DNA of 34,135 bases from Lachnospiraceae bacterium. GTDB taxonomy: Bacteria; Bacillota; Clostridia; Lachnospirales; Lachnospiraceae. Both the position numbers and the translations under genes were made by a program. How positions within the stretch are numbered: the first letter of the stretch is position 1; each line of letters begins with the position of its first letter. The stretch spans positions 1-34,135 of the forward strand of contig JAQXZD010000067.1 of NCBI GenBank assembly GCA_029227035.1, in the 5' to 3' direction. Of the stretch, positions 6,584 to 30,450 are shown piece by piece. A model generated the notes under the pieces. It made no database searches, was not told the DNA's origin, and was given only the letters and a program-made list of their open reading frames with translations.

Positions 6584-7924
6584 ATGAGTGTACAGGTTGA
6601 AAATTTAGAGAAGAATATGGCAAAGCTTACCATTGAGGTATCTGCCGAGGAATTGGACAAGGCGATTGAGTCTGTGTACCAGAGACAGAAAAAGCAGATC
6701 AGCGTGCCGGGATTCCGTAAGGGAAAGGTTCCGAGAGCAATGGTTGAGAAGATGTATGGTGTCGGCATATTCTATGAGGATGCAGCCAATGCACTGATGC
6801 AGGAGAAGTACCCGGAAGCAGTTGACGAGAGCGGAATCGATATTGTATCCCGTCCGACTGTGGACATTGTACAGATAGAGAAAGGCAAGCCTTTTATCTT
6901 TACGGCAGAAGTTGCAGTAAAGCCGGAAGTTACACTGGGCAAGTACATGGGTGTCACCGTTACAAAGATCGATACTACCGTATCTGATGAGGAAGTAGAG
7001 GAGGCACTTAAGACAGAACTGAATAAGAATGCCAGAACAGTTACCGTAACAGACAGACCGGTTGCAGAAGGTGATACAGCCGTAATCGACTTTGAGGGAT
7101 TTGTGGACGGCGTTGCATTTGAAGGCGGTAAAGGAGAGAATCATCCGTTGGAGATCGGTTCCCATACATTTATCGACAACTTTGAGGAGCAGCTTATCGG
7201 AAAGAACTCCGGTGAAGAGGTTGAGGTTAACGTGACTTTCCCTGAGCAGTATCAGGCAGAGGAGCTTGCAGGAAAGCCGGCAGTATTCAAGGTTAAGATT
7301 AATGAGATTAAGACAAAGGAACTTCCGGAGGCAGATGATGAGTTTGCACAGGATGTGTCTGAGTTCGATACTTTGGCAGAGTACAAGGAAGACCTGAAGA
7401 AGAAACTGGAAGAGAGCAAGCAGAACGAGGCAAAGCGTACCAAGGAAGATGAGGCTATCCAGAAGATTATCGATAAGTCCAAGATGGAACTTCCGGAGGC
7501 AATGATTGATACACAGTGCGAGACCATGGTCAATGAGTTCGCACAGAGAATTGCACAGAGCGGTCTGTCCATGGAACAGTATCTGCAGTTCTCAGGACTT
7601 ACCGTGGACGGCTTAAAGGAGCAGGTTCGTCCGGAGGCAATCTCCAGAATCCAGAGCAGTCTTGTTCTTGAGCAGATTGCAAAGGAAGAGAACATTGAAG
7701 TAACAGATGAAGATATCGATGCAGAGATTGAGAAGATGGCTGCAAATTACGGAATGGAAGCAGATAAGCTCAAGGAGTACATGGGAGATGCAGAGAAGGA
7801 ATCCATGAAGCGTGAGCTTGCCATCACAAAGGCAGTAGATCTTGTTATGGATAATGTAAAAGAGAGAGCAAAGGCAAAGAGCAGAAAGAGCAAGGAGACA
7901 GAAGAAGCCGGAACAGAAGAATAA
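6584..7924 (+). CDS. tig: Trigger factor
   Basis: Ribosome-associated chaperone and peptidyl-prolyl isomerase that meets nascent chains at the exit tunnel. The N-terminal domain carries the ribosome-docking loop GFRKGKVPR (residues 43-51). An FKBP-type PPIase domain follows (~155-245, with GDTAVIDFEGFVDGVAFEGG), then the helical C-terminal arms (~260-430) and a Lys/Glu-rich tail. At 446 residues it has normal length. ATG 6584 lies 11 nt after AGGAGG (6567-6572); an earlier in-frame ATG at 6563 precedes this site and is rejected. It heads the tig-clpP-clpX-lon quality-control cluster, an order common in Firmicutes. Confidence 0.96.
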   Translation: MSVQVENLEKNMAKLTIEVSAEELDKAIESVYQRQKKQISVPGFRKGKVPRAMVEKMYGVGIFYEDAANALMQEKYPEAVDESGIDIVSRPTVDIVQIEKGKPFIFTAEVAVKPEVTLGKYMGVTVTKIDTTVSDEEVEEALKTELNKNARTVTVTDRPVAEGDTAVIDFEGFVDGVAFEGGKGENHPLEIGSHTFIDNFEEQLIGKNSGEEVEVNVTFPEQYQAEELAGKPAVFKVKINEIKTKELPEADDEFAQDVSEFDTLAEYKEDLKKKLEESKQNEAKRTKEDEAIQKIIDKSKMELPEAMIDTQCETMVNEFAQRIAQSGLSMEQYLQFSGLTVDGLKEQVRPEAISRIQSSLVLEQIAKEENIEVTDEDIDAEIEKMAANYGMEADKLKEYMGDAEKESMKRELAITKAVDLVMDNVKERAKAKSRKSKETEEAGTEE

Positions 7925-22805: not shown

Positions 22806-24002
22806 ATGAAAAGAAAAGTAATTGCATTGTTATTGTGCATGACAAGCGTACTGGCTTTTGCCGGATGCGGAAACGGAAAGACAGAAGATACACAGGCGAC
22901 GGAGATTGCCAAGGAAGAATATAACGGACCGAGCAGCTCCGAGATAGACATTGACCTGAAGAAGCAGGTGTCAAAGCTCTGCGATTATAAGGGAATTGAG
23001 GTAACCATCGCAGGGGACTATGAGGTGACGGATGAGAAGGTGGAAAACAATATCATGTCCATTCTTCCATATTACGGAATTACCGGAGTGGAGGTCAAGG
23101 ACAGGGATACCGTGCAGGAAGGCGATTATGTCAAGATTGACTATACGGGCTATGCGGATGGCGAGGCTTTTGAGGGAGGCTCCGCAGAGGATGTTATGTT
23201 TGATGTCAGCAATAATTTTGATGTGACCAGTCAGAGTAACTATATTGATGGTTTTGCAGACGGACTTATGGGCGCCAAAGTGGGAGAGGAAGCAAGTTCC
23301 GATGTTACTTTTCCGGAGAATTACCAGTCCACGGAGCTTGCCGGAAAACCTGCAACCTTTAAGTTCAAAATCAAAGGAATTTATAAGCCGGTTACCATGG
23401 ACAATCTGACAGACGATATGGTAAAGGAAGCGTTCACGCAGGAGAAGCTTACCACAAAGGATGAGCTCATTGATTATGTGAAGGATTATCTGAAGCAGCA
23501 GTGTGAGTCCGCTCGTTTGCAGGATACCAACAGTGCCGTAAAGGATTATGTAAAGGAACACAGTGAAGTGGAAGTGCCGGAGGATTATCTTCAGGCAAGA
23601 CTGGCAGAGTACGAAGCGAATTTTATTCAGGACTATTGTTCGGATTCCCAGACTCTGGAGCAGTATGCCGCTACCAACGGAACCACGGTGGAAGAGATGC
23701 GCACCACATGGAAAAGTGCGCTGGAAGAACAGATTATCTATGAATTTTTGTTTGGCAGAATTGCAGACCTGGAGGACATTCAGGTGGACGAAGAGGATTA
23801 CGGCAATTTTCTTGACTATCTGGTAAGCGCAAAGGGTGACGGTGCGACGGAAGCGGACGTGTACCAGTATTATGGTAACGGAAATGAAGAGGACGGAGAG
23901 AAGGTACTTCGCCAGTTATACCGTGTAAATAAGGCAGTTACCTTTGTCTCAGAGAATGCAAAGGTGACAGAGAAAAAGGCAGAGGCACAGACAGAACAGT
24001 AA
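22806..24002 (+). CDS. Trigger-factor-like FKBP-type PPIase lipoprotein
   Basis: A 398-residue exported lipoprotein. The signal peptide ends in LAFAGC, with Cys21 as the lipid anchor. An FKBP-type PPIase domain lies at about 95-190 (GDYVKIDYTGYADGEAFEGG, then TELAGKPATFKFKIKGI), followed by a helical region resembling the trigger factor C-terminal arms (~195-390). The ribosome-docking N-terminal domain of trigger factor is missing and is replaced by a short linker. It therefore looks like a trigger-factor derivative working outside the membrane as a foldase for secreted proteins. AGGAAAGGAA precedes the ATG. asnS follows 20 nt downstream, possibly in the same transcript. Confidence 0.9.
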   Translation: MKRKVIALLLCMTSVLAFAGCGNGKTEDTQATEIAKEEYNGPSSSEIDIDLKKQVSKLCDYKGIEVTIAGDYEVTDEKVENNIMSILPYYGITGVEVKDRDTVQEGDYVKIDYTGYADGEAFEGGSAEDVMFDVSNNFDVTSQSNYIDGFADGLMGAKVGEEASSDVTFPENYQSTELAGKPATFKFKIKGIYKPVTMDNLTDDMVKEAFTQEKLTTKDELIDYVKDYLKQQCESARLQDTNSAVKDYVKEHSEVEVPEDYLQARLAEYEANFIQDYCSDSQTLEQYAATNGTTVEEMRTTWKSALEEQIIYEFLFGRIADLEDIQVDEEDYGNFLDYLVSAKGDGATEADVYQYYGNGNEEDGEKVLRQLYRVNKAVTFVSENAKVTEKKAEAQTEQ

Positions 24003-25414: not shown

Positions 25415-25480
25415 AAATGAATAATCCGGATGTTCTCACATAGAATAGAAATGCAGAATGAATCGTGTGGGAGGCCGGAT

Positions 25481-25858
25481 GTGGAGCAGGAAGGATTGGA
25501 GAGTCAGGCGGATATCGGAAAGAAAAAGCGGACCGGATGGGTGTTTGCCGGAATCTTTTTGGCGGTATGTCTGCTGACAGGGCTGTTTCTTGTCCTGTGG
25601 GCGTGGATTTCTTATCACATGCGTTTTTCCGCAGAAGTCATCAGGGCGGGACTTATGGCAGGATACATTCTTCCGTGCTTTATCGGAGGAAAACTGTTTG
25701 GCAGGCTGCATTGTAAGAAGGCGGCGCTTCTGGGAGCAGGACTTGGAGGACTCTTTTTTTTGCTGGTTCTTCTTCTGGCGGCAGAAACCTCCGTTCATTG
25801 GCCGATTCTGTTGTTGTGCGTGGGAAGCGGAGCCTTGGGCGGAATTCGCAGAAGATAA
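25481..25858 (+). CDS. TIGR04086-type small membrane protein
   Basis: A 125-residue protein with four hydrophobic segments: GWVFAGIFLAVCLLTGLFLV, then VIRAGLMAGYILPCFIGGKL, LLGAGLGGLFFLLVLLL and PILLLCVGSGALGG. The pattern fits the TIGR04086 (YrzE-like) family of unknown function, often found next to SCIFF genes in clostridia. GTG 25481 is chosen for the GGGAGG (25469-25474) 6 nt upstream; in-frame ATGs at 25430 and 25451 lack such a site. Position right before the SCIFF promoter makes a link to that peptide system possible, but direct evidence is lacking. Confidence 0.75.
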   Translation: MEQEGLESQADIGKKKRTGWVFAGIFLAVCLLTGLFLVLWAWISYHMRFSAEVIRAGLMAGYILPCFIGGKLFGRLHCKKAALLGAGLGGLFFLLVLLLAAETSVHWPILLLCVGSGALGGIRRR

Positions 25859-25867
25859 AAAAACTCT

Positions 25868-25895
25868 TTGCATATCTCTCATGCTGTGCTATAAT
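25868..25895 (+). promoter_or_regulatory. Strong promoter for the SCIFF operon
   Basis: TTGCAT (25868-25873), a 16-nt spacer and a perfect TATAAT (25890-25895), 53 nt before the SCIFF ATG. It begins 9 nt after the TIGR04086 stop. Confidence 0.75.
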
Positions 25896-25948
25896 AGCAA
25901 AGATAGACAGGTTATTACCTGAATAAAGAAGAAAAAGGAGAGATTCTG

Positions 25949-26092
25949 ATGAAACATGTAAAGACCTTAAATACAAGAAAGTTACAGAACACTGTTAAGA
26001 AGGGTGGATGCGGCGAGTGCCAGACATCCTGTCAGTCTGCATGCAAGACTTCCTGCACAGTTGGAAACCAGACTTGCGAGCAGTATCGTTAG
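25949..26092 (+). CDS. scfA: SCIFF peptide precursor (six-cysteine ranthipeptide)
   Basis: A 47-residue ribosomal peptide precursor, too short for most gene calls. It has the SCIFF layout: a leader with MKHVKTLNTRK, then six cysteines (21, 24, 28, 32, 36, 43) in the core from GGCGECQTSC to GNQTCEQYR. The maturase encoded next door installs thioether bridges; in the characterised SCIFF peptide the crosslink joins Cys32 and Thr37, and both residues are present here at the same positions. AAGGAGAG precedes the ATG at ideal spacing. A strong promoter lies upstream and a hairpin downstream, so precursor should be made in excess over the enzyme. The biological role of SCIFF is not settled. Confidence 0.95.
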   Translation: MKHVKTLNTRKLQNTVKKGGCGECQTSCQSACKTSCTVGNQTCEQYR

Positions 26093-26112
26093 TTTTTTGA
26101 TGAGAATACGTT

Positions 26113-26156
26113 CCCGGACATAGTATAGGTACAGAATGTCCGGGGGCGGCTTTTTT
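26113..26156 (+). terminator. Attenuator/terminator between SCIFF precursor and maturase
   Basis: A 9-bp stem CCCGGACAT (26113-26121) with ATGTCCGGG (26136-26144), loop 14 nt, then GGCGGC and six T residues. The spacer before the T-run should make it leaky, letting some transcription reach the maturase. Confidence 0.65.
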
Positions 26157-26182
26157 ATGTGGTGAAAGAGAGGAATATTGTA

Positions 26183-27538
26183 GTGGTTCATCAGTATAAG
26201 AACAACGGCTATGATATTGTTTTGGATGTCAATTCCGGCGCAATTCATGTGGTAGATGACGTGACCTATGATGTGATTGCGTTGTTTGAGGAACATACGG
26301 AGGACGAAATCCGTGAGGCACTGAAAGATACATATCCACAGACAGAGATTGAAGAGGCACTGGAGGAAGTAAAGCAGCTTCGGGATCAGGGCGAGCTTTT
26401 TACGGAAGATATATACGAAGAGCGGATTATGGACTTTAAGAAGCGCCCGACCGTTGTTAAGGCGCTTTGTCTTCATATTGCCCATGACTGTAATCTTGCC
26501 TGCAGATACTGTTTTGCAGAGGAGGGCGAGTATCACGGAAGAAGGGCACTGATGTCTTATGAGACAGGAAAGCAGGCGCTTGACTTTCTGATTGCCAATT
26601 CCGGCAGTCGTCGCAATCTTGAGGTGGATTTTTTCGGAGGCGAGCCGCTTCTTAATTTTGATGTGGTAAAGCAACTGGTGGCTTACGGACGGGAGCAGGA
26701 AAAGCTCCATGACAAGCATTTTCGTTTTACGCTTACAACAAACGGAGTGCTTCTGGATGACGATATCATGGAATTTGCCAACAAAGAGATGGATAATGTC
26801 GTGTTGAGCATTGACGGACGTAAGGAAGTGCATGACCGAATGCGTCCATTTAGAAAAGGAGCAGGCAGCTATGATCTGATTGTTCCGAAGTTCCAGAAGT
26901 TCGCGGAAAGCCGGCATCAGGGCAAATATTATGTGCGCGGTACATTTACACATTTTAATACGGATTTTTCCAAGGACGTACTTCATCTGGCGGATCTGGG
27001 ATTTAAGCAGATCTCTGTGGAGCCGGTTGTGGCACAGCCGGAGGATGAGTATGCCTTGACCGAAGAGGATCTTCCGGTACTTTTTGAAGAATACGATAAG
27101 CTTGCGGCAGAGATGGTTCGCAGAAAAAAAGAAGGAAAAGATTTCAATTTCTTCCATTTTATGATTGATCTGGAGGGCGGTCCTTGTGTCTATAAGAGAT
27201 TGTCGGGCTGTGGTTCCGGAACGGAATATCTTGCGGTGACACCGTGGGGAGACCTGTATCCATGTCATCAGTTCGTAGGAAATGAAGACTTTTTAATGGG
27301 AAACGTCCGGGACGGTGTAACCAATACAGAGCTTCGCGATGAGTTCAAATGCTGCAATGTCTATGCAAAAGAAAAGTGCCGTAACTGTTTTGCGCGTTTC
27401 TATTGCAGTGGTGGATGTGCCGCAAACTCGTACAATTTTCACGGAAGCATTACAGATGCTTATGATCTGGGCTGTGAGCTTCAGAAGAAACGTATCGAGT
27501 GTGCGATTATGATAAAAGCCGCTGAAGCGGAAATTTAA
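26183..27538 (+). CDS. scfB: SCIFF radical SAM/SPASM maturase
   Basis: A 451-residue radical SAM peptide-modifying enzyme that forms Cys-to-Thr thioether links in SCIFF. The N-terminal region (VHQYKNNGYDIVLDVNSGAI) is the leader-binding PqqD-like domain. The SAM-cluster motif is Cys103-X3-Cys107-X2-Cys110 in DCNLACRYCFAEEG. The C-terminal SPASM region carries the auxiliary-cluster cysteines (GCGSGTEYLAV, LYPCHQF, FKCCNVYAKEKCRNCFARFY and CSGGCAANS). I choose GTG 26183, 9 nt after GAGAGG (26168-26173), because it gives the family N-terminus; the frame is open from GTG 26159. secDF follows 18 nt later, the usual neighbourhood. Confidence 0.95.
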   Translation: MVHQYKNNGYDIVLDVNSGAIHVVDDVTYDVIALFEEHTEDEIREALKDTYPQTEIEEALEEVKQLRDQGELFTEDIYEERIMDFKKRPTVVKALCLHIAHDCNLACRYCFAEEGEYHGRRALMSYETGKQALDFLIANSGSRRNLEVDFFGGEPLLNFDVVKQLVAYGREQEKLHDKHFRFTLTTNGVLLDDDIMEFANKEMDNVVLSIDGRKEVHDRMRPFRKGAGSYDLIVPKFQKFAESRHQGKYYVRGTFTHFNTDFSKDVLHLADLGFKQISVEPVVAQPEDEYALTEEDLPVLFEEYDKLAAEMVRRKKEGKDFNFFHFMIDLEGGPCVYKRLSGCGSGTEYLAVTPWGDLYPCHQFVGNEDFLMGNVRDGVTNTELRDEFKCCNVYAKEKCRNCFARFYCSGGCAANSYNFHGSITDAYDLGCELQKKRIECAIMIKAAEAEI

Positions 27539-27556: not shown

Positions 27557-29839
27557 ATGAAAAAAAGTAAGGGCGTCGTTATTATCGCTGTCATCCTGGC
27601 CTGCTTGATTGGTCTGGGATATTTTACGACAACGATTATGTCAGCGACAAGCACAAGTCAGGCAGATACTGACAACAAGAAAGAGTCCGAGGGTATCAAA
27701 CTGGGACTGGATCTTTCCGGTGGTGTGTCCATTACCTATCAGATTGTGGACAAGAACCCATCCAAGAAAGATATCGAGGATACTGTGGCAAAGCTGGAAG
27801 AGCGTGCAGAAAGCTACAGTACCGAGTATGCAGTGTATCCGGTAGGAGATGACCGTATTACGGTTGAAATTCCGGGTGTCTATGATGCAAACGCGGTGTT
27901 GGAGGATTTAGGAAGTCCGGGATCTTTGTATTTTATTGTACAAAAAGGTGCGGACGGAAACGATAACTATACTTACAACAGTTCTACCGGAGAGTATGAA
28001 CTGGCAAAGAGTATTGATGAGCTGATTGCGGATGGTTCCGTAATTCTGGATGGAAATGACGTTAAGTCGGCAACGGCAGGTTATTCCCAGAGAAGTTCCA
28101 CCAGTGCCAAGGAGCCGGTTGTAGATCTGGTGCTTAAGTCTGACGGAGCAGAGATTTTCGGAGAAGCTTCCACAAATGCTTACCAGAATCAGCAATCCAT
28201 CGGTATTTACTATGATGATCATTTCATCAGTGTACCAAACGTAGAGTCTCCGATTACAGACGGTAACTGTCAGATTACAGGACAGAAGGATTATGAGGAA
28301 GCAGAACAGCTTGCAACCTTTATCCGTGTCGGTGCCATCAATCTGGAGTTAAAAGAGATGGAGTCCAGTGTTGTGGGTGCACAGCTTGGCGGTAAGGCTC
28401 TTACTTCCAGTGTTAAGGCAGCAATCATCGGTCTGATTATCGTAATGCTTTATATGATTATCTGCTATGGTCTGTCCGGTGTGGTTGCATCTGTGGGACT
28501 TGGCATTTATACAACAATCGTTGTATCCCTGATTTATCTCTTTGAGATTACATTGACACTTCCGGGTATTGCCGGTGTTATTCTCGGTATCGGTATGGCG
28601 GTGGATGCAAACGTTATTATCATCTCCCGTATCCGTGAAGAGATTGCAAACGGAAAGTCCGTTCTGACGGCAATTAAGGAAGGATATCAAAAGGCATTGT
28701 CTGCAATTTTGGATGGTAACATTACAACCCTTATTGCAGCGCTTGTACTGATGTGGCTTGGTTCGGGAACCGTTAAGGGATTTGCTTATACCCTGATGAT
28801 TTCCATCGTGGTATCACTGTTTACAGCCCTTGTGGTATCCAGATTGTTAAATCTTGCACTGTATGCAGTGGGATGCCGGAACGAGAAGCTGTACGGCCGT
28901 GCAAAAGAGCGCAAGACCATCGACTTTATGAAGCACAGATGGAAATGGTTCATAGTTTCCATCGCAGTTATCGTTGCAGGAGTTGTGGGAATGATTGCGT
29001 ACAGCGCATCCGGTAATAATGCATTGAATTACAGCCTTGAGTTTGTAGGAGGAACTTCCATCTCGGCTGACTTCGGTAAGGATTATACCGTGGAGCAGGT
29101 AGAGGATACCATTGTTCCGGAAGTGGCAAATGTCATTAACGATAAGGCAATCCAGGCAAGTACCGTATCCGGAAGCAATGTTGTTACCATCAAGACAAAG
29201 ACTCTGACTCTGGAAGAACGTGAGGCAGTGAACCAGATGCTTGTGGACAAATTCGGAGTGGACGAGTCCACCATTGAAAGTCAGAGTATCGGTTCCACCA
29301 TCAGCGGCGAGATGAGACAGAATGCAATCCTTGCAGTGGTTGTTTCCTGCATTTTCATGCTGTTCTACATCTGGTTCCGTTTCAAGGATATCCGTTTTGC
29401 TGGAAGTGCGATTATCGCATTGGTACATGATGTGCTGGTGATGCTGACTGCATATGCGCTCATCCGTATCTCTGTCGGTAGCACCTTTATCGCATGTATG
29501 CTTACGATTGTCGGATATTCCATCAACGATACGATTGTCATTTTCGACCGTATCCGTGAGAATATGCACAGTGTCAGAAAGCAGACGCCGGAGACGCTGG
29601 CAGAGGTTGCCAACCGTTCCCTGACACAGACCTTGTCCAGATCCATCAATACGTCAGTAACAACCATCGTAATGGTACTGCTCCTGTTTATCTTTGGAGT
29701 ATCCTCCATTCGTGAGTTTGCATTGCCGCTTATGGTTGGTCTGATCAGCGGTACTTATTCTTCCATCTTTATCGCAGCAAGTCTGTGGTATACGATGAAG
29801 CTTCATCTTGGAAAAGGAAAGCTGATTAAGAAAAAATAA
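27557..29839 (+). CDS. secDF: Protein translocase subunit SecDF (fused)
   Basis: A 760-residue fusion of SecD and SecF, the proton-driven accessory of the Sec channel that pulls secreted proteins out of the membrane. The SecD half starts with a membrane helix and the GIKLGLDLSGGVSITYQIV signature, followed by the extracytoplasmic domain (~60-270) and membrane helices with GIAGVILGIGMAVDANVIII. The SecF half begins near residue 455, with YSLEFVGGTSISADFG and TIVGYSINDTIVIFDRIREN. It is one uninterrupted frame. GAGGAAGG precedes the ATG. The stop overlaps the next start (TAATG). Its link with SCIFF is positional. Confidence 0.96.
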   Translation: MKKSKGVVIIAVILACLIGLGYFTTTIMSATSTSQADTDNKKESEGIKLGLDLSGGVSITYQIVDKNPSKKDIEDTVAKLEERAESYSTEYAVYPVGDDRITVEIPGVYDANAVLEDLGSPGSLYFIVQKGADGNDNYTYNSSTGEYELAKSIDELIADGSVILDGNDVKSATAGYSQRSSTSAKEPVVDLVLKSDGAEIFGEASTNAYQNQQSIGIYYDDHFISVPNVESPITDGNCQITGQKDYEEAEQLATFIRVGAINLELKEMESSVVGAQLGGKALTSSVKAAIIGLIIVMLYMIICYGLSGVVASVGLGIYTTIVVSLIYLFEITLTLPGIAGVILGIGMAVDANVIIISRIREEIANGKSVLTAIKEGYQKALSAILDGNITTLIAALVLMWLGSGTVKGFAYTLMISIVVSLFTALVVSRLLNLALYAVGCRNEKLYGRAKERKTIDFMKHRWKWFIVSIAVIVAGVVGMIAYSASGNNALNYSLEFVGGTSISADFGKDYTVEQVEDTIVPEVANVINDKAIQASTVSGSNVVTIKTKTLTLEEREAVNQMLVDKFGVDESTIESQSIGSTISGEMRQNAILAVVVSCIFMLFYIWFRFKDIRFAGSAIIALVHDVLVMLTAYALIRISVGSTFIACMLTIVGYSINDTIVIFDRIRENMHSVRKQTPETLAEVANRSLTQTLSRSINTSVTTIVMVLLLFIFGVSSIREFALPLMVGLISGTYSSIFIAASLWYTMKLHLGKGKLIKKK

Positions 29840-30170: not shown

Positions 30171-30179
30171 TTTTGATAA

Positions 30180-30450
30180 GTGCGTAGAACAGAAACAGTA
30201 AATATTACAGAGCTTACAGAGAGAAGTCGGCAGGTGCGAGACTTTAGCTGTCTGGATATTGAACCGGTCTGGGAGCAGCAGAGAGGAAAACTGGGACAAT
30301 CGAGGATTGGAACGGAAATCTCTGCCGGAAGTCACCGTTATCAGAGACAGGCAGGCACAGCTTGCGCAGAGAGCAGATGGATATCTGAAATTAGGTGGTA
30401 ACGCGGATTTAATTCGTCCTAAGTATCGTTAGATGCTTAGGATTTTTTAT
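30180..30450 (+). promoter_or_regulatory. Proline-specific T-box leader upstream of proS
   Basis: A tRNA-sensing leader of about 270 nt. Stem I features are seen (GAGAGAAGTCGGCAGGTGCG near 30220), and a specifier region GAA-CCG gives CCG (30264-30266), a proline codon. The T-box sequence GGTGGTAACGCGG (30394-30406) carries the TGGT that pairs with the ACCA end of uncharged tRNA. The competing terminator is TCCTAAG (30417-30423) with CTTAGGA (30436-30442) and six T residues. Uncharged tRNA-Pro should favour antitermination and raise ProRS expression. Exact helix borders need covariance modelling. Confidence 0.9.

Follow-up and report, generated by a model that had tools for sequence, protein, structure and literature searches.

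How a small modified peptide and the enzyme that modifies it might come to be made in unequal amounts from adjacent genes, and whether the genes on either side of them take part in the export or sensing of the peptide, are the questions raised by the locus described here. The locus lies in a window of 34,135 nucleotides, the whole stretch of DNA analysed, from a gut bacterium of the Lachnospiraceae whose assembly is 85.6% complete. It is a standard SCIFF ranthipeptide system consisting of the genes scfA and scfB, correctly recognised as such in an earlier sequence-only reading and ordinary in its family membership. Both the SCIFF family and the RiPP strategy of placing a terminator behind the precursor gene are already known. 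The system matters because, by profile search, 209 of the 243 genomes surveyed in the class, presumably Clostridia, carry this peptide. Useful additions made by the comparison reported here are a recurring terminator layout, evidence concerning residue Thr34 and a negative result for the neighbouring gene TIGR04086.

The SCIFF gene pair and its closest known systems

The precursor gene scfA (25949-26092, forward strand) encodes 47 amino acids and scores above the curated cut-offs of both SCIFF precursor profiles, TIGR03973 (87.2 bits, cut-off 50) and PF13165 (88.6 bits, cut-off 27). Its translation contains the six cysteines already pointed out in the sequence-only reading, at positions 21, 24, 28, 32, 36 and 43, along with Thr34 and Thr37. 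The adjacent maturase gene, scfB (26183-27538, forward strand), follows scfA and encodes a radical SAM/SPASM protein of 451 amino acids, again as that reading held, which matches the SCIFF maturase model TIGR03974 at 822.5 bits (cut-off 425). The scfB frame is open from a GTG at 26159, and its start is most likely the GTG at 26183, because a GAGAGG sequence, the likely ribosome-binding site (26168-26173, forward strand, read from sequence), lies nine bases upstream and position 1 of TIGR03974 falls on the second codon. Additional features of the translation include a CNLACRYC stretch that matches the radical SAM CX3CX2C motif, a match to PF04055 (59.3 bits) and a SPASM domain that passes narrowly (PF13186, 21.7 bits against a cut-off of 21.5). 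The score against the exception model not_ScfB (NF040492), 611.2 bits, is below the cut-off of 855, which leaves the protein within ScfB. Its closest public relatives are maturases of Agathobacter and other Lachnospiraceae, with at most 92% identity in a comparison from which records of the window's own genome were possibly left out.

The closest known SCIFF systems are CteA-CteB (thermocellin) of Clostridium thermocellum and Tte1186a. CteB belongs to the same maturase family as the ScfB of the window, which matches a chain of PDB entry 5wgg, which we take to be CteB, at 639.6 bits over 448 residues. Three residues named for CteA in reviews, Cys32, Thr34 and Thr37, are all present in the window precursor (PMC8326336, PMC8172795). 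A further likeness is offered by freyrasin (PapA/PapB), a ranthipeptide produced by a related radical SAM/SPASM enzyme. PapA is described as having six cross-links between Cys and Asp residues spaced as Cys-X3-Asp (PMC8172795); the window precursor, unlike PapA, contains no Asp, and its maturase scores 288.9 bits against the PapB model, under the cut-off of 340. No mention of SCIFF was located in the body of PMC6284299, and in PMC8748961 it occurs in the reference list only.

Two sets of loci were compared. The class set comprises 176 loci, namely the window and 175 fetched loci out of the 209 SCIFF-positive genomes (33 are without a fetched locus); the first 120 were hand-picked from the score-ordered SCIFF list, and the 55 positives with the lowest scores came in afterwards. 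The nearest set comprises 81 loci, the window and the 80 closest public loci, mostly Lachnospiraceae by title. ScfB was detected at E <= 1e-90 in 208 of the 243 genomes, and a hand count from the genome lists gives 206 with both SCIFF and ScfB, three with SCIFF only (G082, G196 and G153, with ScfB fragmented in G153) and two with ScfB only (G182 and G232). Within the class set, scfB directly adjoins scfA at 149 of the 176 loci, part of the remainder being contig ends, and the gap between the two genes is shorter than 30 nt in 7 of the 149.

Two unusual cases were also noticed. In two genomes of one genus (L083 in G082 and L222 in G196), SCIFF has an intact Cys pattern and is without a ScfB match at 1e-90, which may reflect an assembly gap, contamination or a true orphan. 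In two others (L231:6995-7264 in G003 and L234:6825-7091 in G100), two complete SCIFF units, each with leader and core, are arranged in tandem within one frame of approximately 90 amino acids, and a full-length ScfB match is located just downstream in both.

Precursor variation and the position of the thioether

The sequence-only reading placed Thr37 of the precursor at the known thioether position. The residue is indeed there, and the assignment represents one side of a published disagreement: a Cys32-Thr37 link comes from in vitro work and a Cys32-Thr34 link from heterologous expression, a discrepancy that the reviews leave open (PMC8326336, PMC8172795). Natural variation at residue 37 provides a direct handle on this disagreement. 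Among the 176 class precursors, gathered by a profile search that may miss more divergent ones, 175 retain Cys32, all 176 have Thr34 and 143 have Thr37; residue 37 of the other 33 is Gly in 31, Ala in one and Ser in one. Because Thr34 is invariant whereas Thr37 is replaced in 33 precursors, the comparison favours Thr34, rather than Thr37, as the acceptor of the Cys32 thioether, although the acceptor could differ between lineages. The argument rests on few events, as the Thr37 label corresponds to two changes on a FastTree phylogeny of 147 maturases, in which 29 of 30 non-Thr37 rows fall within one well supported clade. This clade sits beside the family of the window, and in the nearest set every one of the 81 precursors has Thr37. 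Since six family codes (f11, f18, f28, f30, f56 and f59) hold both residue-37 types, the distribution suggests that the gene pair has been transferred or replaced. A maturase from a Gly37 locus may reach scores equal to those of the rest (787.6 bits in G085).

Residues 28-36 of the core are invariant in the 176 class loci save for one Cys32Ser. The exceptional precursor (L201 in G195, oriented 6998-7147) has an extra Cys near its C-terminus and adjoins a strong ScfB match (762 bits).

At the nucleotide level, codons vary freely, with 164 distinct 30-nt cores in the 176 loci. Because the core residues are invariant while the codons vary, the peptide itself appears to be under selection, and a constraint on the core RNA instead of the peptide is not supported. 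The invariant core also argues for one conserved target instead of a strain-specific bacteriocin. The wide spread of SCIFF in Clostridia has been taken to speak against antimicrobial activity (PMC8326336), and disruption in C. beijerinckii is reported to lower sporulation genes and raise agr (Chen 2020, summarised in PMC8102284).

Promoter, terminator and proposed read-through

A sigma-70-like site, TTTGCA-17-TATAAT with a TG before the -10 element (25867-25895, forward strand), precedes scfA and is its candidate promoter. The sequence-only reading called this promoter strong. Its elements are present, but the site is not beyond chance in the window alone, where sites of this kind number 4 on both strands compared with 3.0 +- 1.9 in shuffles; it is the comparison between genomes that makes it credible. 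At a score of at least 10 within 150 nt upstream, a threshold that detects sigma-70-type sites only, a promoter-like site is found before scfA in 119 of 175 class loci (5.55 in shuffles) and in 50 of 80 nearest loci. Such sites are not enriched before scfB (3 of 149 class loci versus 2.15 in shuffles) or inside the scfA-scfB gap of the nearest loci (1 of 80 versus 0.6 in shuffles), and a sigma-70-type promoter belonging to scfB itself thus finds no support.

Between the two genes of the window lies a terminator-like signal (26109-26156, forward strand). Folding yields a G+C-rich stem of 13 bp (26109-26148; -22 kcal/mol) that includes two G-U pairs and is followed, after the two bases GC, by a run of six T residues (26151-26156), the makeup of an intrinsic terminator. 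The hairpin proposed in the sequence-only reading is real, with a stability z of -4.4 that none of 200 shuffles equalled; a simple terminator scan that allowed only loops of 3-8 missed it. The displaced T-run described in the same reading proved wrong, as the two G-U pairs lengthen the stem to 26148 and close the gap, which rules out displacement as a cause of leakiness. In form the hairpin resembles an ordinary intrinsic terminator, from which no leakiness can be read. Its predicted strength could mean that read-through is small or depends on antitermination.

The same layout recurs across the class. Of the 142 gaps between scfA and scfB that measure 30 nt or more, 120 contain a hairpin followed by a T-run, compared with 27.2 in shuffles and 37 on the antisense strand. 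The excess persists when the hairpin is required to reach -10 kcal/mol (108 gaps; 7.45 in shuffles, 28 antisense) or -14 kcal/mol (80 gaps; 1.4 in shuffles, 18 antisense), and 22 of the 142 gaps have no terminator by the criterion used. Where scfB is not next to scfA (27 loci, some of them contig ends), the 200 bases after scfA contain the signal in 25 (7.6 in shuffles, 12 antisense). Gaps of at least 30 nt in the nearest loci contain it in 55 of 80 (11.6 in shuffles, 33 antisense). Antisense counts exceed those of shuffles, most of all in the nearest loci, as is expected of two-way terminators. Control gaps in the first 121 loci seldom contain the signal (tgt-yajC, 1 of 32; TIGR04086-scfA, 1 of 40; scfB-secDF, 2 of 16). 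It was detected in 19 of 37 yajC-TIGR04086 gaps and is therefore not unique to scfA; the cluster often has two internal stops. While the order of promoter, scfA, terminator and scfB recurs, the hairpin sequences are unrelated across the class.

Because promoter-like sites are enriched before scfA and not before scfB, scfB is most simply transcribed by read-through from the scfA promoter. It is likely, taking the model as a whole, that the extended -10 promoter would give rise to a short scfA mRNA (an estimated 250 nt or so) ending at the intrinsic terminator, that scfB would be made from transcripts reading through this terminator, leaving the precursor in excess over the enzyme, and that ScfB would cross-link Cys32 through a thioether, with Thr34 a likelier acceptor than Thr37. 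Peptide excess by way of a leaky terminator was also the proposal of the sequence-only reading; the comparison of layouts (120 of 142 gaps) supports such an excess as a general design and makes it a testable one, whereas partial read-through is something we infer from the missing recognisable scfB promoter. In RiPP operons, precursor genes are reported often to precede imperfect terminators that lower the expression of downstream genes, and one is predicted after btmD of the bottromycin operon (PMC7113386). Unlike the bottromycin-type case, the SCIFF layout recurs class-wide and in the nearest loci has the housekeeping gene secDF behind it.

In the window, secDF (27557-29839, forward strand; TIGR01129 and TIGR00966 both above cut-off) begins 18 bases after scfB. 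It is located downstream of scfB in 76 of the 81 nearest loci, with a median gap of approximately 20 bases, and in none of these 76 does a promoter-like site (score of at least 10) occur in the 150 bases before it. Because of this short gap and the lack of a promoter-like site, secDF in the nearest relatives may depend on the same read-through as scfB, in which case it would probably be carried on the same transcript.

That scfB and secDF are instead served by a promoter missed by the consensus, either one used by another sigma factor or one inside scfA or scfB, with the hairpin acting as a full terminator of scfA, is unlikely. Such an arrangement would suit the predicted strength of the window hairpin, the terminator-like signals that follow scfA in 25 of the 27 loci lacking an adjacent scfB and the promoter-like sites before secDF, seen at 35 of the 60 loci in the initial class-level set. 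Against it, sigma-70-type sites are not enriched before scfB relative to shuffles, the nearest loci have none in the 150 bases before secDF, and only 26 bases separate the T-run of the window hairpin from the GTG at 26183.

Within the nearest set, one recurring hairpin form occupies 48 of the 81 gaps (49 pattern matches, of which L314 was dropped by eye before alignment). In the alignment of the 48, five of nine stem pairs have changed on both sides, three are invariant and 95% of cells are paired, the pair changes being counts among related sequences and not independent events. The window hairpin differs from this form in sequence, while several near relatives, among them L243-L247 and L249 (not L248), carry it. 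A dispersed repeat is not supported as its source: the strict pattern (GRCCG...CGGYC then TTTG) occurs 35 times in the 81 gaps and twice outside, and a loose pattern occurs 50 times in 10.8 kb of gap sequence versus 269 times in 1.9 Mb outside, on two strands. When a model of the form was searched against whole genomes, 10 of the 11 other SCIFF genomes of the same genus had a match just after scfA, which in 9 of the 10 was the best in the genome. Exceptions include G244, where the match after scfA is partial and antisense, G254, where an antisense match is stronger, G253, where the match after scfA is not the best and the sense match is weak (E 0.038), and G243, where SCIFF and the matches are on different contigs. 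The form matches both strands in many loci and has the appearance of an orthologous, slowly drifting two-way terminator that can be replaced.

This conservation of structure bears on a further alternative, that the main role of the hairpin is to protect a processed scfA mRNA at its 3ʹ end, with unequal levels arising by cleavage of a longer transcript. A stable hairpin could fill both roles; nevertheless, processing needs no T-run, and T-runs stand behind the hairpins in 120 of 142 gaps, making this account more doubtful still than that of a missed promoter. Returning to termination with read-through, we give equally little credence to an extension in which the Lachnospiraceae SCIFF terminator is a shared control point, where read-through would set the levels of both maturase and SecDF, possibly with feedback from the peptide or from Fe-S/SAM status, and the conserved, locus-specific hairpin would act as the switch.

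Neighbouring genes

Gene order in this part of the window is a trigger-factor-like gene, asnS, TIGR04086, scfA, scfB, secDF, a DUF1294 gene and proS. Neighbours in other loci were identified by means of profiles made from clusters in the first 121 loci, and six labels were checked with NCBIfam; the cluster labels SecD/SecF, RecJ, RelA, SpoIID, RuvA and decarboxylase are provisional names, taken in part from record titles. The TIGR04086/DUF3792 membrane protein (25430-25858, forward strand) scores 37.8 bits against TIGR04086 (cut-off 30) and 41.5 bits against PF12670. The sequence-only reading was right to place this gene just upstream of the SCIFF pair and secDF just downstream, but its suggestion that TIGR04086 is a partner of SCIFF gained no support from the neighbourhood comparison.

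In the class set, TIGR04086 lies no more than 5 kb from scfA at 77 of the 176 loci and is the gene directly upstream at 69, as in the window. It is directly upstream in at least 24 of the 81 nearest loci, a lower bound, as the home-built TIGR04086 profile scores the protein of the window at only 21.4 bits. The gene is nonetheless no commoner with SCIFF than without: by hand count from the genome lists, 159 of the 209 SCIFF genomes carry it, as do 26 of the 34 that lack a SCIFF match (24 of 32 when G182 and G232, in which ScfB is present, are left out). The control B. subtilis has TIGR04086 and lacks SCIFF. Moreover, of 20 TIGR04086 loci drawn from the 26 SCIFF-free genomes that carry the gene, 9 have it adjoining yajC. 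The 143 Thr37 class loci have YajC within 5 kb in 93 cases, SecDF in 87 and TIGR04086 in 77, and the 33 non-Thr37 loci have none of the three within that distance. Equal frequency with and without SCIFF and adjacency to yajC speak against TIGR04086 as a specific SCIFF partner, and a dedicated exporter or sensor role for it is highly improbable despite its frequent position directly upstream. Its place next to YajC in SCIFF-free genomes agrees with a later insertion of scfAB into an older yajC-secDF cluster. secDF is still a candidate partner: it follows scfB in 76 of the 81 nearest loci, but is near scfA in none of the 33 non-Thr37 loci. In the window's own genome, yajC is on another contig. 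A literature search found no paper on TIGR04086.

Among other neighbours, a decarboxylase-like gene takes the place of yajC/secDF beside SCIFF in 24 of the 33 non-Thr37 loci compared with 3 of the 143 Thr37 loci (examples are L040, L116 and L136). Elsewhere in the window, a T-box leader precedes proS (30176-30424; RF00230, 132 bits) and was the sole match in an Rfam search of the window at the gathering threshold. The trigger-factor-like protein encoded at 22806-24002 contains FKBP_C and Trigger_C domains and scores 178.8 bits against the tig model, just below the cut-off of 180.2; its N-terminus appears lipoprotein-like by eye.
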